Below the pieces are notes generated by a model. That model did not search any database. It was not told the origin of the DNA and worked only from the letters and a program-made list of their open reading frames with translations. This document shows, piece by piece, positions 5,125 through 30,827 of a stretch of 40,542 bases of DNA (its first letter is position 1; each line of letters begins with the position of its first letter). Origin of the DNA: Spirochaetaceae bacterium. GTDB lineage: Bacteria > Spirochaetota > Spirochaetia > DSM-27196 > SKKC01. Location: positions 1 to 40,542 of the forward strand of contig RECN01000049.1 of NCBI GenBank assembly GCA_007694005.1, read 5' to 3'. The position numbers and the translations under genes are program-made.

Positions 5125-6468
5125 ATGAACGAGTATAAAGCACGTGTACGTGCATATCAGAAGGCTGTCGGACAGAAATCGACAGGTCCGAAGGACAGCG
5201 ACGAAGCAACCGCATCCCGAAAACAGAACAGTGAAGTGCCCGGCGTGACTGCGAACGGTGAGAGTCAGCCGTCGGCAGAAAACCGAGCGGGATTTTTCGA
5301 GACCGCACCGTGGTGGCAGAAGGGTACTTCCGAGTCGACAGTTCCCGGGTCAGTCGCGTCGTCTCATTCATCCGCCGAAAGCGCATCAGAGACGGTATCT
5401 GAGGGGCAGACGTCCCTCGACCGGGAACAGGCGGTAGCAATCCTGCTGCAGTCCCTTGAGCCGGACGAGAGCGCGCGCATACTCCGGGCATTACCGTCCG
5501 ATGTATCGGAACGGGTTGCAGCCCGTGCACTGACCATGGAGCAGCCGGACGACGAACAGAAACGTGAGGCGTTCAGACTGCTGCAGGATATACCGGGACT
5601 TGCCGCAATTCGCACCAAAGCCGGGGAAGAAGGCGAGTTCACCGTGTCGGCGAAGTCGCGATCGCTACACGCGCAGGACGCCGCATCGGGACAGCGCACC
5701 GCGACGGCACCGGGGTGGGCGCGTGCGGAAGACGCGCTAACTCGGGCGTTCGGATCGGAGAAAGCCCGGGAGATCATGAGTCGTGCGATTCCGCAGATCG
5801 GCCGGGTCTGGCTGTCGTTTCTTGAAGAACTGCAACCGCGTCAGCTTTCGGTACTGATTGGTCGTGAATCGCTCGAGGTCAAGTCCCTGCTTGTAGCTCA
5901 CGCCGCACCTCAGGTTGGTTCGCGAATTCTTGCGCAGGCAGGGCGTGACGAACAGAACGCTATGGTCCGGCGTGTGGCTCGAATGCGTGAAGTACCGTCT
6001 GATATCGTGCGCACCATCGCGGAGTCACTGAAGGCACGCATGCGTGAGATCGGCACTGACGCCGAACGCGAGGTTCAGGGTGTGTCGACGCTTGCGGAAA
6101 TCATGAAACACCTCAACGATGAGCATCTGCTCAAGGAAATCTCGGATGAACTGCCCGAGCTCGGACAGGCTCTGACCGACGAGCTGTACTCGATAGAAAT
6201 GGTACACCGTGTGCCGGACAGGGCCCTTGAGGATATACTGAACCGGCTCGATGATATTGAAATCGCCCGACTTCTGAAAGGAAAAGAAGAGGCGGTCCGC
6301 AGGCGGATCCTCGAGAACGTCAGCGAGCACAGAGCCCTGATCATCTCCGAAGAGTATCGCGATCTCGGTCCGCAGCTGCGCAAGGATGTCGACGTCCTTA
6401 CGCACGAGTTTGTCCGCATGCTCCGCGAGGTCGAGCCGGACGCCCGGACCGTTTCCGCGCAGGCTTGA
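5125..6468 (+). CDS. FliG-like flagellar motor switch protein (divergent paralogue)
   Basis: FliG couples the MS ring and the stator to switch flagellar rotation; spirochaetes typically carry two paralogues. This 447-residue protein begins with about 95 residues of low-complexity Ser/Glu/Gly-rich sequence, followed by an N-terminal FliG-type helical region (about 97-160). A second linker leads to the middle ARM-like domain (about 200-300), where the usual EHPQ-type motif is replaced by LQPRQLSVLIG. The C-terminal domain is clear (about 318-437). Aligned by eye to E. coli FliG, torque-helix D288/D289 are Glu409/Glu410, K264 is Lys385, and R281 is His402 with an Arg next to it. It stands apart from other flagellar genes and has its own promoter. 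Start ATG 5125 is supported by GGAGG four bases upstream. It is most likely the spirochaetal FliG1-type protein rather than the core switch component; I leave the symbol blank for that reason. Confidence 0.85.
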   Translation: MNEYKARVRAYQKAVGQKSTGPKDSDEATASRKQNSEVPGVTANGESQPSAENRAGFFETAPWWQKGTSESTVPGSVASSHSSAESASETVSEGQTSLDREQAVAILLQSLEPDESARILRALPSDVSERVAARALTMEQPDDEQKREAFRLLQDIPGLAAIRTKAGEEGEFTVSAKSRSLHAQDAASGQRTATAPGWARAEDALTRAFGSEKAREIMSRAIPQIGRVWLSFLEELQPRQLSVLIGRESLEVKSLLVAHAAPQVGSRILAQAGRDEQNAMVRRVARMREVPSDIVRTIAESLKARMREIGTDAEREVQGVSTLAEIMKHLNDEHLLKEISDELPELGQALTDELYSIEMVHRVPDRALEDILNRLDDIEIARLLKGKEEAVRRRILENVSEHRALIISEEYRDLGPQLRKDVDVLTHEFVRMLREVEPDARTVSAQA

Positions 6469-6537: not shown

Positions 6538-7056
6538 ATGCATTCGGTTCGTATGGCCTATCTATTGTGGCTGCCCTCTCTGTTCGGGTTTTCCGGCCTG
6601 CACAGGTTTTATCTCGGTAAGTTCGGGACAGGTCTGCTCTTTTTCTTCACCGGTGGCCTTTTCGGTCTGGGAACGCTGTACGACGCATTTACGCTGCCCG
6701 ATCAGGTCAGGGAAGCACGACTGAAATCCCGTTACTCAGCGGCACTGGAAGCGTCCGACCGCGAGTTTCTCCGCAGACTGGGAATTAACACCTCCACAGG
6801 TAGTTCGGAAGGCCGTACCCGTGAAACGGTTGAGCACGTGATACTCCGCACAGCGAAGAAGAATCGTGGTGTCGCGACGCCTGCCGAAGTAGCTCTTGAA
6901 GGCGGAATTTCCACCGACGAGGCCAAGCAGCACCTCGAGTCGCTTGTAGATAAGGGCGTTGCCGAGTTACGCGTCCGACGGGCGGGAGGGACTCTGGTCT
7001 ACGTATTGCCGGACTTCCTCGACGCAGGCGTCGAAGATAGTCTTGAGAGCTTCTAA
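6538..7056 (+). CDS. TM2-domain membrane protein with C-terminal winged-helix-like module
   Basis: A 172-residue protein. Residues 5-52 match the TM2 domain pattern: two hydrophobic helices (about 7-24 and 30-47) joined by a short turn with GLHRFYLGKFGTG, and a Tyr-Asp pair after the second helix. A basic linker follows. Residues about 95-160 look like a winged helix: a helix with RGVATPAEVALEGGISTDEAKQ, a recognition-like helix, then a GGTLVYVLPDF strand. This end motif resembles those in the membrane protein at 1406-2914. The function is unknown; TM2 proteins are widespread and mostly uncharacterised. Start ATG 6538 has AGGAG seven bases upstream. It lies between the FliG-like gene and alaS, on the same strand, 69 bases after the former. 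Confidence 0.82.
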   Translation: MHSVRMAYLLWLPSLFGFSGLHRFYLGKFGTGLLFFFTGGLFGLGTLYDAFTLPDQVREARLKSRYSAALEASDREFLRRLGINTSTGSSEGRTRETVEHVILRTAKKNRGVATPAEVALEGGISTDEAKQHLESLVDKGVAELRVRRAGGTLVYVLPDFLDAGVEDSLESF

Positions 7057-7102
7057 CACGCGATCACTACAACAGTATTTTATCCCACAATAGAGGACAG
7101 TA

Positions 7103-8881
7103 ATGACGGCAAATGAACTGCGAAAGAAATACATAGACTTTTTCACCAGCAAAAACCACGCTCATATCTCGGGTAAGTCGCTGATTCCGGAGAACGATCC
7201 TACGGTTCTGTTTACCACTGCGGGTATGCATCCCCTTGTTCCCTATCTCCTTGGCGAGCAGCATCCCGCGGGCACACGACTGGTGAATCATCAACGCTGT
7301 GTCCGCACGGGTGACATAGACGAAGTCGGCGACTTCAGTCATCTGACGTTTTTTGAGATGCTCGGAAACTGGTCGCTGGGAGACTACTTCAAGGAAGAAG
7401 CCATACAGATGAGCTACGAGTTCATGACGGAGTGGCTGGAGATTCCCGTCGATCGCCTTTCAGTGACGGTGTTCGCCGGAGATGATTCCGTGCCCCGGGA
7501 TGAAGAGTCTGCAGCGATCTGGCGGAGCCTGGGAATTCCCGAAAATCGCATCCATTACCTGCCGAGAAGCGACAACTGGTGGGGGCCCGCCGGCGCAACC
7601 GGTCCCTGTGGACCGGATACCGAAATGTTCATCGATACCGGAGCACAGGGCGTCGAAGGGAGCCGTCCGGGTATAAACGACGGTAAATACATGGAGATAT
7701 GGAACGATGTCTTCATGCAGTACAACAGGAACGGGGATGGTGTGTACGAGAAACTCGACCGCCGCTGTGTCGATACCGGCATGGGCATAGAGCGGACCAT
7801 CACCATACTACAGGGTAAAAAAACGGTTTACGATACCGAAGTATTTCAGCCCATACTCGAACGCATAGGAACGCTCTCCGGGAAACGCTACGGGGAGAAC
7901 GAGGACGATGATCGGGCGTTCCGAATCGTGGCGGACCACGTACGAACGGCAGCATTCATACTCGCTGACGAACGCGGTGTTGCACCGACAAATGTCGGTG
8001 CGGGCTATGTCCTGCGTCGACTCATTCGCCGGGCGGTGAGGTTCGGCCGAAAACTCGGCTTCGACGGGCCGTTTCTGACTGATCCTGCCGAACTTGTGCT
8101 CGAAATGTACCGGGAACCCTATCCGATGCTGCAGAACCGCGCCGAAGAGGCCTTAAGCGAGCTGAAAGCCGAGGAGGAACGATTCCTTCTGACGCTTCGC
8201 AAAGGCGAGCACGAGTTCTCGAAAATGCTGCCGAATTTACAGAAAAGCGCGACTGCGACGATACCGGGTCGTGTCGCATTCAAACTGTACGATACCTACG
8301 GGTTTCCCATCGAAATCACCGAAGAACTCGCGCGAGAGGAAGGGCTGGCAGTCGATCGCGAAGGCTTCGAGGCGGCGTTCAGGAAGCACCAGGAGCAGTC
8401 GAAGCTTGAAGGTGAGAAGAACTTCAAGGGAGGCCTCGCCGATCACTCCGAGCAGACGACACGACTGCACACGGCGACTCATCTACTTCATCAGGCCCTG
8501 CGTGACGTGCTCGGTGACCACGTAGCACAGAAAGGAAGCAACATCACACCCGACAGGCTTCGTTTTGACTTTTCGCATCCTGATAAAATGACACCCGAAC
8601 AGTTGTCTCAGGTCGAAACCATCGTCAACGAACAGATACAGCGGGATCTGCCGGTGAGTTTTGCTACCATGAAGCTGTCGGACGCCAGAAAAGACGGTGC
8701 TATTGCGCTGTTTGTCGACAAGTATGACGAGGATGTCAAAGTGTATTCCATCGGAGACTACTCGAAAGAGGTCTGCGGAGGACCCCACGTGGAGCACACC
8801 GCGGAGCTTGGAAGCTTTCGCATAAAGAAAGAACAGTCGAGTTCTCAGGGCGTCCGGCGTATCAAGGCTGTTCTCGAGTAA
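7103..8881 (+). CDS. alaS: Alanine-tRNA ligase, short form without C-terminal domain
   Basis: Charges tRNA-Ala with alanine in the cytoplasm. The class II catalytic domain at the N terminus shows KSLIPENDPTVLFTTAGM and TFFEMLGNWSLGDYFK, and GTGIERTI-type motif 3 sequence appears as DTGMGIERT. The tRNA-recognition domain follows. The editing domain carries its four metal ligands: His456-x3-His460 (HTATH) and Cys558-x3-His562 (CGGPH). The protein stops 30 residues after the last ligand, at 592 residues, whereas most bacterial AlaRS have about 870. The C-Ala/oligomerisation domain is therefore absent. As far as I recall, spirochaetal AlaRS are about this length, so this is probably a lineage feature rather than damage. 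Start ATG 7103 has AGAGGA five bases upstream. The last 20 bases overlap the convergent TPR gene. Confidence 0.95.
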   Translation: MTANELRKKYIDFFTSKNHAHISGKSLIPENDPTVLFTTAGMHPLVPYLLGEQHPAGTRLVNHQRCVRTGDIDEVGDFSHLTFFEMLGNWSLGDYFKEEAIQMSYEFMTEWLEIPVDRLSVTVFAGDDSVPRDEESAAIWRSLGIPENRIHYLPRSDNWWGPAGATGPCGPDTEMFIDTGAQGVEGSRPGINDGKYMEIWNDVFMQYNRNGDGVYEKLDRRCVDTGMGIERTITILQGKKTVYDTEVFQPILERIGTLSGKRYGENEDDDRAFRIVADHVRTAAFILADERGVAPTNVGAGYVLRRLIRRAVRFGRKLGFDGPFLTDPAELVLEMYREPYPMLQNRAEEALSELKAEEERFLLTLRKGEHEFSKMLPNLQKSATATIPGRVAFKLYDTYGFPIEITEELAREEGLAVDREGFEAAFRKHQEQSKLEGEKNFKGGLADHSEQTTRLHTATHLLHQALRDVLGDHVAQKGSNITPDRLRFDFSHPDKMTPEQLSQVETIVNEQIQRDLPVSFATMKLSDARKDGAIALFVDKYDEDVKVYSIGDYSKEVCGGPHVEHTAELGSFRIKKEQSSSQGVRRIKAVLE

Positions 8882-26516: not shown

Positions 26517-27011
26517 ATGACTATATCCAGACGCGCATTCCGATTCGCGTTGAGTGTTCTACTTGCCGTGACTGCATCAGCCCCGCTTGTGGCCGATACA
26601 GTCCTTGTACACGTCCACGGGAATACCCGTGAACTCACCCGGCAGGCGTCCGTTTCGCAGATTACCCGTGCGTTTGAAGACGGTCTCATGATCCCTCTCT
26701 TTGAGCGGGGACATATTGTTTTTAATCTGATGGATGATGGTGAACCGCTCGACGTCGATACTGCTCGGTCCGTCGGTGCCGCCGAAGGTGTCGATTGGGT
26801 TGTTCTGGTCGAAATACATCTTGTTTCTGCCAACGGCTCAGCAGACGTCGACTCCGCCCGCTATTCCTTTGTCCGCGTAGCTGCCGGTGAGGATACCGTA
26901 AACGGGTCGTTCACCGCCGGTGAGTTCGACCGGCGTCGTGGGGAGAGCCTGGTGGCTGCCGTTGAACGAGTAGGGCGAAACCTCGCGGACAGCTTCCTCG
27001 ATGAGATGTAA
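26517..27011 (+). CDS. Small secreted protein of unknown function
   Basis: A 164-residue protein from ATG 26517, supported by GAGGAG six bases upstream; an earlier in-frame ATG at 26496 would place the Shine-Dalgarno inside the gene. A signal peptide is clear: basic TISRRAFR, a hydrophobic core, and likely cleavage after PLVA at about residue 27. The mature part has an alternating pattern with VDWVVLVEIHLVS in the middle and a helical, charged C terminus ending in Met. No family is recognised. It is 10 bases from the SPOR-domain gene on the same strand, so both probably act in the periplasm. A weak likeness to small envelope lipoprotein-like folds can be imagined, but nothing is specific enough to name. 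Confidence 0.8.
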   Translation: MTISRRAFRFALSVLLAVTASAPLVADTVLVHVHGNTRELTRQASVSQITRAFEDGLMIPLFERGHIVFNLMDDGEPLDVDTARSVGAAEGVDWVVLVEIHLVSANGSADVDSARYSFVRVAAGEDTVNGSFTAGEFDRRRGESLVAAVERVGRNLADSFLDEM

Positions 27012-27021
27012 GGGAGGAGAA

Positions 27022-28746
27022 ATGCCCATGCGACAGCGAAAACTGGTAAAAGAAACCCGATCGCGGTGCGTTTTTTTCATTGCTGCGCTCGTGCTCTTTT
27101 TACTATCGACGCCGGTATTCTCCGACTACGCATGGGAAGGCATTGCCGCTCGCGGTGCCGCTGCCCTGTTTCCGGATGAAGGTCTGTTTGTCGCCTCTAA
27201 CGTCGTGCCCAGGAATAGCGTCGTTGAAGTGACGAGTCTCGATACCGGTCGAAGCGTACGCGTTATCGTGACGCGGCGTGCTTCCGAACCGGGTCTGCTG
27301 GCGCTCTTGAGCCCCGACGCATTTGATGTACTCGGTGTCTCGGCGGATGAAGACCTGACACGGGTGCTGCTCTCGCCGGTTTCTGTTCCCGGTCTCGCGA
27401 GCGCCGATCGGGATGAGAGCCTTCGCGTTCCCGACGGGGCAGATCGTGTGTCGACCCCCGGCCCGATCAGCAGGCCAGAGCGCATTGTGATACCGGCTCC
27501 CGAACCTGAGCCTGAGCCGGCCCCAACGGAAGAACCCGAACCCGAACCTGAAACGGCTCCCGAACCTGAGCCCGCAGTCGAAGTTGTCGACGCACTCCCC
27601 CGCAGCACTCCGCGCGAGGATCCTGCAGCACCCGACGACGTCGATCTTCCGGTCGAGTTACCGGAACCGGATCAGAGTCTGAGTCTGCCGGTGCCGCCGG
27701 CTGAGCCATCGTTTGTTCTTGCCGAGCTTCCCGAGCCGGACTTGCGACTCGTCGACCCGTCTCCCGATACTCCGGCACCCGAGGAGTTTGTGGCACCGGA
27801 TGCCTTTGTGGATGAGATCGGCATAGACCAAGTGAACCGACTTGCCCGCGTGATCGAACGGGCGGAATCTCTCAGGAATCGTGATCCCGACAGACTGTCT
27901 GTCGCGCCGTTCGGAGAACGCGGCCCTGACGACGTCGCCAGACTGCTGCCCGACCGCGAATCCCCTCCGGTGTTTATCGCCGATGAACCGATTGTGCCGA
28001 TAGACGAAGAACCCGTCATAACCGAGCCTGATGAGGCAGACGCATCATTTCCGCGCATTGCGGCTGCCGATGATCATACGACGGAGGCGACTGACACTCC
28101 TGAAACACCGGCCTTCGCGGAGGCGGGTGTCGAGCGGGTGCAACCCACAGAGATCCCCCCCGTGGTCATCGCTGACGAACCGGCTGAGCCACGCTTCGTG
28201 CTTGACGATCTGCTCGACGACCGACCCCTGCCACCCGAAGAACCTGAACCCGACACCGCGGTGGTGGCCGAACCACCCGAACCACAGCCACACGAGGAAA
28301 GCCCGGCTGAGATCGCTGTAGACGTAATCGTAGAAATGGAACCGGCAGAACCGAGACCCGCTGAACCGGGCCCGGCTGAGCGCGATGCGGCGGCGATTGC
28401 CGAAGCCGAAGCAGAAGCAGCTGAAGTCGAGGAAACGCCGCCGGCTGTAGTCGCGCCGGTTGAAGCTCCTGAAGTGGTCAGTGACCTTCCGCTCGTCGAA
28501 ACGCTTGAGCCCGGTTCGTTCTATCTGCAGATCGGAGCCTGGTCCCGGATCGAATCGGTTGAGGCGGTAACACGCGACCTGAGTGACGTGTATCCTCTCG
28601 TCATAACAAGAGTTGAAACCGAGGAACGGACGCTGTATCGTGTCTTTGTCGGACCACTTGGCGCAGACGAACGGGGCCTGGCCCTGTTCAACATCAGAAC
28701 CCTCGGGTTCCGGGATGCGTTTGTCCGACGTGGAGGCGAATCATAG
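27022..28746 (+). CDS. Exported RlpA-like/SPOR protein with long Pro/Glu-rich linker
   Basis: A 574-residue envelope protein. An N-terminal hydrophobic signal segment (about 17-34) ends near VFSDYA. Residues about 52-108 resemble the RlpA double-psi beta-barrel (VEVTSLDTGRSVRVIV, then a SPDAFDVLGV block as in IDLSxxAAxxLG). The catalytic His and Asp of RlpA glycosylases appear replaced by Ser59 and Arg85, so it is probably inactive. About 380 residues of Pro/Glu/Asp/Ala-rich linker follow, with EPEPEP-type repeats. A C-terminal SPOR domain (about 498-574; FYLQIGAWS, RVFVGPL) should bind denuded peptidoglycan at septa. ATG 27022 is preferred, with GGAGG four bases upstream; ATG 27028 is an alternative. 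Its TAG stop overlaps the ligA start. Confidence 0.85.
   Translation: MPMRQRKLVKETRSRCVFFIAALVLFLLSTPVFSDYAWEGIAARGAAALFPDEGLFVASNVVPRNSVVEVTSLDTGRSVRVIVTRRASEPGLLALLSPDAFDVLGVSADEDLTRVLLSPVSVPGLASADRDESLRVPDGADRVSTPGPISRPERIVIPAPEPEPEPAPTEEPEPEPETAPEPEPAVEVVDALPRSTPREDPAAPDDVDLPVELPEPDQSLSLPVPPAEPSFVLAELPEPDLRLVDPSPDTPAPEEFVAPDAFVDEIGIDQVNRLARVIERAESLRNRDPDRLSVAPFGERGPDDVARLLPDRESPPVFIADEPIVPIDEEPVITEPDEADASFPRIAAADDHTTEATDTPETPAFAEAGVERVQPTEIPPVVIADEPAEPRFVLDDLLDDRPLPPEEPEPDTAVVAEPPEPQPHEESPAEIAVDVIVEMEPAEPRPAEPGPAERDAAAIAEAEAEAAEVEETPPAVVAPVEAPEVVSDLPLVETLEPGSFYLQIGAWSRIESVEAVTRDLSDVYPLVITRVETEERTLYRVFVGPLGADERGLALFNIRTLGFRDAFVRRGGES
28732..28745 (+). promoter_or_regulatory. Shine-Dalgarno and non-canonical ATA start of ligA
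   Basis: GGAGG at 28732-28736 lies six bases before ATA at 28743-28745, in the ligA frame. No ATG, GTG or TTG exists in that frame between the last upstream stop (28614-28616) and GTG 28968, which is inside conserved LigA sequence. ATA overlaps the TAG stop of the previous gene by two bases. Confidence 0.6.
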
Positions 28747-30827
28747 ATCCGAAACAGGAAGCTCGTGAACTCCGCGAGCAGATACGAAAACACGAATACC
28801 TTTACTTTGTAGCAGGCCGTCCAGAACTCAGTGATACCGAGTTCGACGGCCTGTTTCGCAGGCTCGAAGCGCTTGAGGCTGAACACCCGGAACTAAGGAC
28901 GGCCGATTCGCCCAGTTTACGCGTCGGGTCTGATCTGTCCGGGGATTTCCCGGAGGCTGCACATACGGTGCCGGTACTGAGTCTGGACAAGGCGTACAGC
29001 CACGAAGAACTCTCGACCTGGGTGCGGCGCACGTCCGACAAGCTCGGGCATGCCCCCGTTTTCGTCGTGGAAGAGAAACTCGACGGGGTCAGCATCGTGC
29101 TGTACTACGAGCAGGGGGTTCTGGCGCGGGCCGTGACCCGGGGGAACGGCTCTATGGGTAACGATGTGACCGGCAACGTGAGGACCATACGGGATGTTCC
29201 TTTGCGTCTGCAGGATGATGTCGACATAGCGGTCCGGGGCGAGATACTGCTGCCACTGGTGGCATTTCGCCGTTTGAACGAAGACATGGAGACGCCCTAC
29301 GCGAACCCGAGAAACCTGGCGGCGGGTACGCTGCGAAGAGTGAAGTCCCGGGAGACGGCCGGGGTCCCGCTACGGTTTTTCGCCTATGAGGGTTTTCTCA
29401 CCGACGTGCCGGCCGGAAGGTCCGTGTCGACGCATCGCGATATGCTCCTGCGTCTTGCGCGCCTCGGGTTTCGGGTCAATCCGCACATGGGTCTGTTCTC
29501 CGAACAGGACGTGAGTAATCCTTTCCCGGACGACGCGGCGCAACTGCCGGCGTTCTCGCAGGTTCAGACAGGCACGCTTGCCGATCTTGAGGACGCGATT
29601 GCTCAGTGGACCGCAGACCGGGAGAGCCGGGAATACGAGATCGACGGCCTTGTCGTGAAGCTCGACGACCTTTCGCTGCGCGACGAGCTCGGCTATACGG
29701 GACACCACCCCCGGTGGGCAATCGCCTACAAGTTTGAGTCGCCGGTCTCGGTCACGAAGGTTCGCTCAATAGACGTGCAGGTGGGGCGCACCGGTCGTAT
29801 TACCCCCGTCGCCCGGGTCGAGCCGGTCGGCATAGGCGGGACGACGGTCAGTAACGTGACGCTTCACAACCAGGCGTATATCGAAGCGCTTGAGCTTCAC
29901 GTGGGCGATACGGTGGAAGTCAGCAGGCGGGGTGATGTGATTCCCGCGGTCGAGCGGGTAATTGAGCCGAATCCCGAGGCACATCCCTACGCATTCCCGA
30001 CCCGGTGTCCGACCTGTGATTCCGTGCTCGAAGAACGGGGTGCGCATCATTTCTGTCCGAACTTCCGATGTCCCGATCGAATGCGCGGACAGCTCCACTT
30101 CTTCGTGGCGAGTGCGCAGATGGACATACAACACCTTGGATCGGAAACCCTGAATCTGCTTCTCGCCGAGGGTATCGTTGAGGAAATTCCCGACCTGTTC
30201 TGTCTCGACTATGAACGTATAGCCGGGTTACCGGGCTTTGGAGCGCGAAAGATCGAACTGCTGAAAGGGTCAATTGAGCACGCGACGAGCCGCCCCTACC
30301 GCACGGTTCTGGCGTCGCTCGGCATCCCCGATCTGGGTCCGAAATTCGTCGAACTCGTCTGCGACGCCGGGTATCGCAGCATCGATGACCTGCTGCAGCT
30401 CGTGGATGAGGGACGTGTCGAGAGTCTGATCGCTATCGACGGTATAGGCGAAAAGACCGCTGCCCGGGTTGCAGAAGAACTTGCACGCCCGTCGGTACGC
30501 TCCGTCATACAGCGCCTGCGGGAAGCGGGTCTTCAGTTTTCCGAGGAACACGCACCGGAAAAGGCCGAGTCGGTGGAAGCGCAGATATTCGCAGGCGAAT
30601 CCTGGTGCATTACCGGCAGCTTCGAGAACTTTCAGCCACGAAGTCTCGCCGCGGAGGAAATCAAGTCACGCGGCGGCACGGTTGTGTCGGACGTTTCGGG
30701 AAAGACGACACATCTTCTTGCCGGTGCGAATGCGGGTAGCAAGCGTGACAAAGCCGAAAAACGTGGTGTAGAAATCGTCGATGAACAGGAGTTCCTCAGA
30801 CGGATCGCCGCGACAGACGACGTTTAA
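28743..30827 (+). CDS. ligA: NAD-dependent DNA ligase, apparently initiated at ATA
   Basis: Seals nicks in DNA during replication and repair using NAD+. From ATA 28743 it encodes 694 residues, a normal LigA length. Domain Ia (about 5-75) is present: HEYLYFVAGRPELSDTEFD. The adenylation domain has the nucleophile in EEKLDG (Lys112) and TRGNG where most enzymes have TRGDG. The OB region is followed by a zinc finger (CPTC...FCPNFRCP), four helix-hairpin-helix repeats, and a C-terminal BRCT domain (SWCITGSFENF onward). A GTG at 28968 would remove domain Ia and is rejected as the start. Two domain Ia residues important for NAD use in E. coli (His23, Tyr35) align with Phe22 and Phe34. The gene is coupled to the SPOR-protein gene upstream and shares a TTAA with the fabZ stop downstream. 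Confidence 0.9.
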   Translation: MDPKQEARELREQIRKHEYLYFVAGRPELSDTEFDGLFRRLEALEAEHPELRTADSPSLRVGSDLSGDFPEAAHTVPVLSLDKAYSHEELSTWVRRTSDKLGHAPVFVVEEKLDGVSIVLYYEQGVLARAVTRGNGSMGNDVTGNVRTIRDVPLRLQDDVDIAVRGEILLPLVAFRRLNEDMETPYANPRNLAAGTLRRVKSRETAGVPLRFFAYEGFLTDVPAGRSVSTHRDMLLRLARLGFRVNPHMGLFSEQDVSNPFPDDAAQLPAFSQVQTGTLADLEDAIAQWTADRESREYEIDGLVVKLDDLSLRDELGYTGHHPRWAIAYKFESPVSVTKVRSIDVQVGRTGRITPVARVEPVGIGGTTVSNVTLHNQAYIEALELHVGDTVEVSRRGDVIPAVERVIEPNPEAHPYAFPTRCPTCDSVLEERGAHHFCPNFRCPDRMRGQLHFFVASAQMDIQHLGSETLNLLLAEGIVEEIPDLFCLDYERIAGLPGFGARKIELLKGSIEHATSRPYRTVLASLGIPDLGPKFVELVCDAGYRSIDDLLQLVDEGRVESLIAIDGIGEKTAARVAEELARPSVRSVIQRLREAGLQFSEEHAPEKAESVEAQIFAGESWCITGSFENFQPRSLAAEEIKSRGGTVVSDVSGKTTHLLAGANAGSKRDKAEKRGVEIVDEQEFLRRIAATDDV

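Follow-up and report, generated by a model that had tools for sequence, protein, structure and literature searches.

A conserved AUA codon overlapping the stop codon of a SPOR-domain gene is the probable start of ligA in a spirochaete lineage

In E. coli, infC starts at AUU and is autoregulated by IF3. Conserved AUA starts are known for infC and ccpN in Staphylococcus, and for ccpN in Bacillus subtilis as well (PMC13009471). The Staphylococcus AUA starts, which have extended Shine-Dalgarno sequences, reach approximately 10-30% of AUG; AUA initiation was mapped by ribosome profiling for both genes and measured with reporters for ccpN (PMC13009471). In addition, E. coli and Haloferax have been shown to couple neighboring genes by termination-reinitiation where the stop codon of one overlaps the start codon of the next (PMC6728339). 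Herein, we describe an uncultured spirochaete lineage in which the DNA ligase gene ligA is very probably translated from an AUA codon that overlaps the stop codon of the gene upstream.

The window, that is, the whole stretch of 40,542 nucleotides that was analyzed, corresponds to contig 191 in a draft genome of 3.9 Mb and 204 contigs, hereafter G000. The features of the locus are as follows.

27022..28746, plus strand: upstream gene with a C-terminal SPOR domain (putative start at about 27022; open reading frame 26974-28746)
28732..28736, plus strand: candidate Shine-Dalgarno sequence GGAGG, with a 6-nt spacer to ATA; also present in the related genomes G001, G002, and G006
28743..28745, plus strand: ATA, proposed ligA start codon, overlapping the TAG of the SPOR gene as ATAG (28743-28746)
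28743..30827, plus strand: ligA, NAD-dependent DNA ligase, 694 aa when read from ATA (MDPKQEARELREQIRKHEYLYF...)
28968..28970, plus strand: GTG, first canonical start codon of the ligA frame (codon 76, past domain Ia)

Positions 28617 to 30827 form an open ligA frame (736 codons from stop to stop; preceding stop, 28614-28616; terminator, 30825-30827), and neither ATG, GTG, nor TTG occurs in it between the preceding stop and GTG 28968. The SPOR gene, whose product ends in a SPOR domain (Pfam PF05036, E 4e-6), terminates at TAG 28744-28746, and the ligA frame, which is -1 relative to the SPOR frame, overlaps its end. A sequence-only reading of this DNA had claimed that no canonical start precedes GTG 28968, which follows domain Ia, and that GGAGG lies six bases 5' of an ATA overlapping the TAG; all of these coordinates were reproduced. 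Read from ATA, the protein carries Nlig-Ia at residues 5-51 together with the adenylation, OB, HhH, and BRCT domains (Pfam), and it matches TIGR00575 at 656 bits (curated cut-off, 444), indicating a full LigA domain set. It is the single LigA match in the genome, and is 94% and 63% identical to the LigA proteins of G001 and G006, respectively.

The ligA locus was compared with those of relatives. Of seven genomes examined in the family, five have ligA; the gene is missing from the drafts of G003 and G005. Four of the five, all draft assemblies, share the same junction: G000, G001, and G002, which are three species of one genus, and G006, which belongs to another genus. In G001, G002, and G006, GGAGG is followed by GAATC, GAGTC, or CAGTC immediately 5' of ATAG. 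TCATAG and a GGAGG-type Shine-Dalgarno sequence with a 6-nt spacer are found in all four genomes. None of the four has a canonical start upstream of domain Ia, and the same rare codon is maintained across four species of two genera. Among approximately 100 ligA loci (60 relatives plus the GTDB collection), a canonical start was absent only in these four. One further locus, L081, was also flagged as lacking a canonical start and was discounted, because it begins close to the edge of a contig and its N-terminus fails to align. The order of the SPOR gene and ligA is retained in G001, G002, G004, and G006. In G004 (L033, G004:C251, approximately 5890-6020), however, the SPOR gene ends with TGA, a gap of more than 100 bases follows, and ligA has an ordinary ATG start, located 13 codons upstream of the ATA column, which gives a longer N-terminus. 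Since G004 belongs to the same family, the ATA arrangement is not indispensable. The four ATA rows grouped together beside G004 (support 91/79) in a LigA tree built from 30 proteins; a single gain therefore suffices. The sequences compared offer little independent evolutionary depth, namely one lineage with two genera. The conservation of this junction supports the real ATA start that the sequence-only reading had proposed. We also looked in the relatives for an upstream start in another frame combined with a frameshift, which would have refuted the ATA start, and found none.

Among start-like codons well spaced from the Shine-Dalgarno sequence, ATA alone is common to the four genomes. In its column, 37 of 103 homologues have ATG, more than at any other start position. 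It is improbable that translation begins instead at another non-canonical codon nearby (ATC 28740, or an ATA 13 codons further in) or at GTG 28968. ATC 28740 adjoins ATA, but the codon preceding ATA is ATC in G000 and G001 and GTC in G002 and G006; the in-frame upstream stop position, and hence the length of the open frame, also varies among the four genomes, and no upstream codon is therefore maintained as a start. All three species of the genus share the inner ATA, but G006 has CTG in its place, and a start at this codon would cut domain Ia. A start at GTG 28968 would remove domain Ia altogether, and the first canonical codon of ligA in the relatives is a different one.

Somewhat less likely still is a LigA produced by -1 frameshifting near the stop of the SPOR gene, that is, as a SPOR-LigA fusion. 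The relation of the two frames and their overlap would allow this, but no slippery heptamer is present near GGC GAA TCA TAG or its counterparts, and a conserved downstream structure was not found; what the junction does offer is a good Shine-Dalgarno sequence and a homologous start position. SPOR domains work outside the cytoplasm and LigA works inside it, which also counts against a fusion.

The main alternative of the sequence-only reading, a sequencing or assembly error at 28745 where the true base would be G and the codon ATG, proved very unlikely. One wrong base in a draft genome of 204 contigs would suffice for it, but the same ATA is found in three further genomes of different species, and an ATG would convert the SPOR stop TAG to TGG and lengthen the SPOR protein. 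Finally, it is hardly credible that ligA is decaying or poorly expressed while another ligase does the work, a redundancy that would make a weak start tolerable: LigA is intact in all domains, keeps its identity to the G001 and G006 proteins with synonymous sites near saturation in the G006 comparison, and was the sole LigA found in a genome search that covered LigA.

With AUA as the most probable start, we assessed whether its retention reflects selection. In the SPOR frame, the A at the first position of ATA is the third base of the serine codon TCA and is synonymous. Fourfold sites in ligA are at saturation between G000 and G002 (32% identical vs 31% expected) and near saturation between G000 and G006 (39% vs 34%), and A occupies only 13% of fourfold sites in G002 and 3% in G006. 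Given that A is rare at such near-saturated sites and has nevertheless been retained, its retention in ATA suggests selection. Of the 347 stops in the genome sample, 80 are TAG. Treating the genomes as independent, a rough calculation puts the chance that TCA and TAG would both be retained at a few per cent in G002 and at about one per cent in G006. The SPOR reading may itself constrain TAG and TCA and so account for part of their conservation; because of this possible constraint, and because a single site is concerned, the odds are support rather than proof. A path from ATAG through ATAA to ATGA would keep a SPOR stop at every step (TAG, TAA, TGA), and it appears to have been taken by no family member with the junction.

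Rare starts do not seem to be a general habit of this genome. In a 440-kb sample with 347 predicted genes (inferred starts: ATG, 265; GTG, 56; TTG, 10), ligA was the only credible gene with a coding signal well before any canonical start, and no genome-wide habit was seen. The screen detects approximately 59% of such genes and misses approximately 40%, since a canonical codon is often present a short way downstream. Just one other candidate scored highly: L179 (minus strand, reverse-complement 6843-7488), an extended open frame that lacks an early start and scored as coding. It is probably no gene, as it lies antisense to an rpsF-like frame, which we take by eye to be rpsF. An AUN start for IF3 was considered and rejected, since infC starts with TTG (UUG) in this group. 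Every genome checked, from two families (L122-L131; G000-G007, G014, G020), appears to have this TTG as the infC start, approximately 18 bases before the conserved IF3 N-terminus and preceded by a GGAGG-type Shine-Dalgarno sequence, a milder form of the tendency of infC toward rare starts.

As to how AUA might be used, initiator fMet-tRNA would pair with it through a third-base mismatch or wobble, assisted by GGAGG six bases upstream. Most probably, a ribosome finishing the SPOR gene at UAG is held by GGAGG and restarts at the overlapping AUA. Since the AUAG overlap resembles the AUGA of coupled pairs, ribosomes terminating on the SPOR gene are probably the main supply. The weak codon probably keeps LigA output low and tied to translation of the SPOR gene. 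More tentatively, and with considerable doubt, AUA may be a maintained regulatory device, in which LigA would come almost only from ribosomes that have just finished the SPOR (envelope/division) protein, at an IF3-sensitive level set by the weak codon. If so, the start would link DNA ligase supply to growth or division.

Other elements that might contribute were also sought. No conserved RNA structure was detected at the ligA start: the minimum energy was only 1.4 standard deviations below that of shuffled sequences, and covariation was not convincing in an alignment whose G006 row lacked the Shine-Dalgarno side, because its slice began at the start codon. A special RNA structure at the start was accordingly rejected. 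An unusual initiator or isoleucine tRNA reading AUA was not favored: the scanned tRNA loci contained two CAU tRNAs and no UAU anticodon, with about ten tRNA hits lying outside the scan. The exact 16S 3' end pattern GGNTCACCTCCTTT occurred in none of the G000, G001, G002, and G006 drafts, and the anti-Shine-Dalgarno sequence was thus not located, probably because rRNA operons are absent from these drafts.

Because the start codons recognized by common gene callers are limited to ATG, GTG, and TTG, annotation of the spirochaete ligA probably omits the NAD-binding domain or misplaces the start. The list of conserved AUA starts is very short; with this one it would come to include the gene of a normally essential DNA-replication enzyme, and the gene, the phylum, and the AUAG layout would all be new to it. 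The SPOR-ligA junction offers a natural test case for whether termination-reinitiation relaxes start-codon stringency. Conserved AUA starts as such are already known; judged by their titles, none of the publications found deals with a ligA that has an AUA start, and the AUAG overlap layout was not found described.

Like the AUU of E. coli infC, the spirochaete codon is a rare AUN start on an essential gene. Unlike the product of infC, LigA is no discriminator of start codons, and direct autoregulation by such a route is therefore not expected. The junction shares with the AUGA and UGAUG coupled pairs a four-base overlap of stop and start and a Shine-Dalgarno sequence inside the upstream gene; it differs from them in its AUAG overlap and non-canonical start, a type that the available text of PMC6728339 does not describe. 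The closest resemblance in codon is to infC and ccpN of PMC13009471. Whereas these encode IF3 and a transcription regulator, the spirochaete gene, known from sequence alone, encodes a DNA ligase and has a start that overlaps an upstream stop; in common with both it combines AUA with a strong Shine-Dalgarno sequence and, as with ccpN, the combination is kept between genera.
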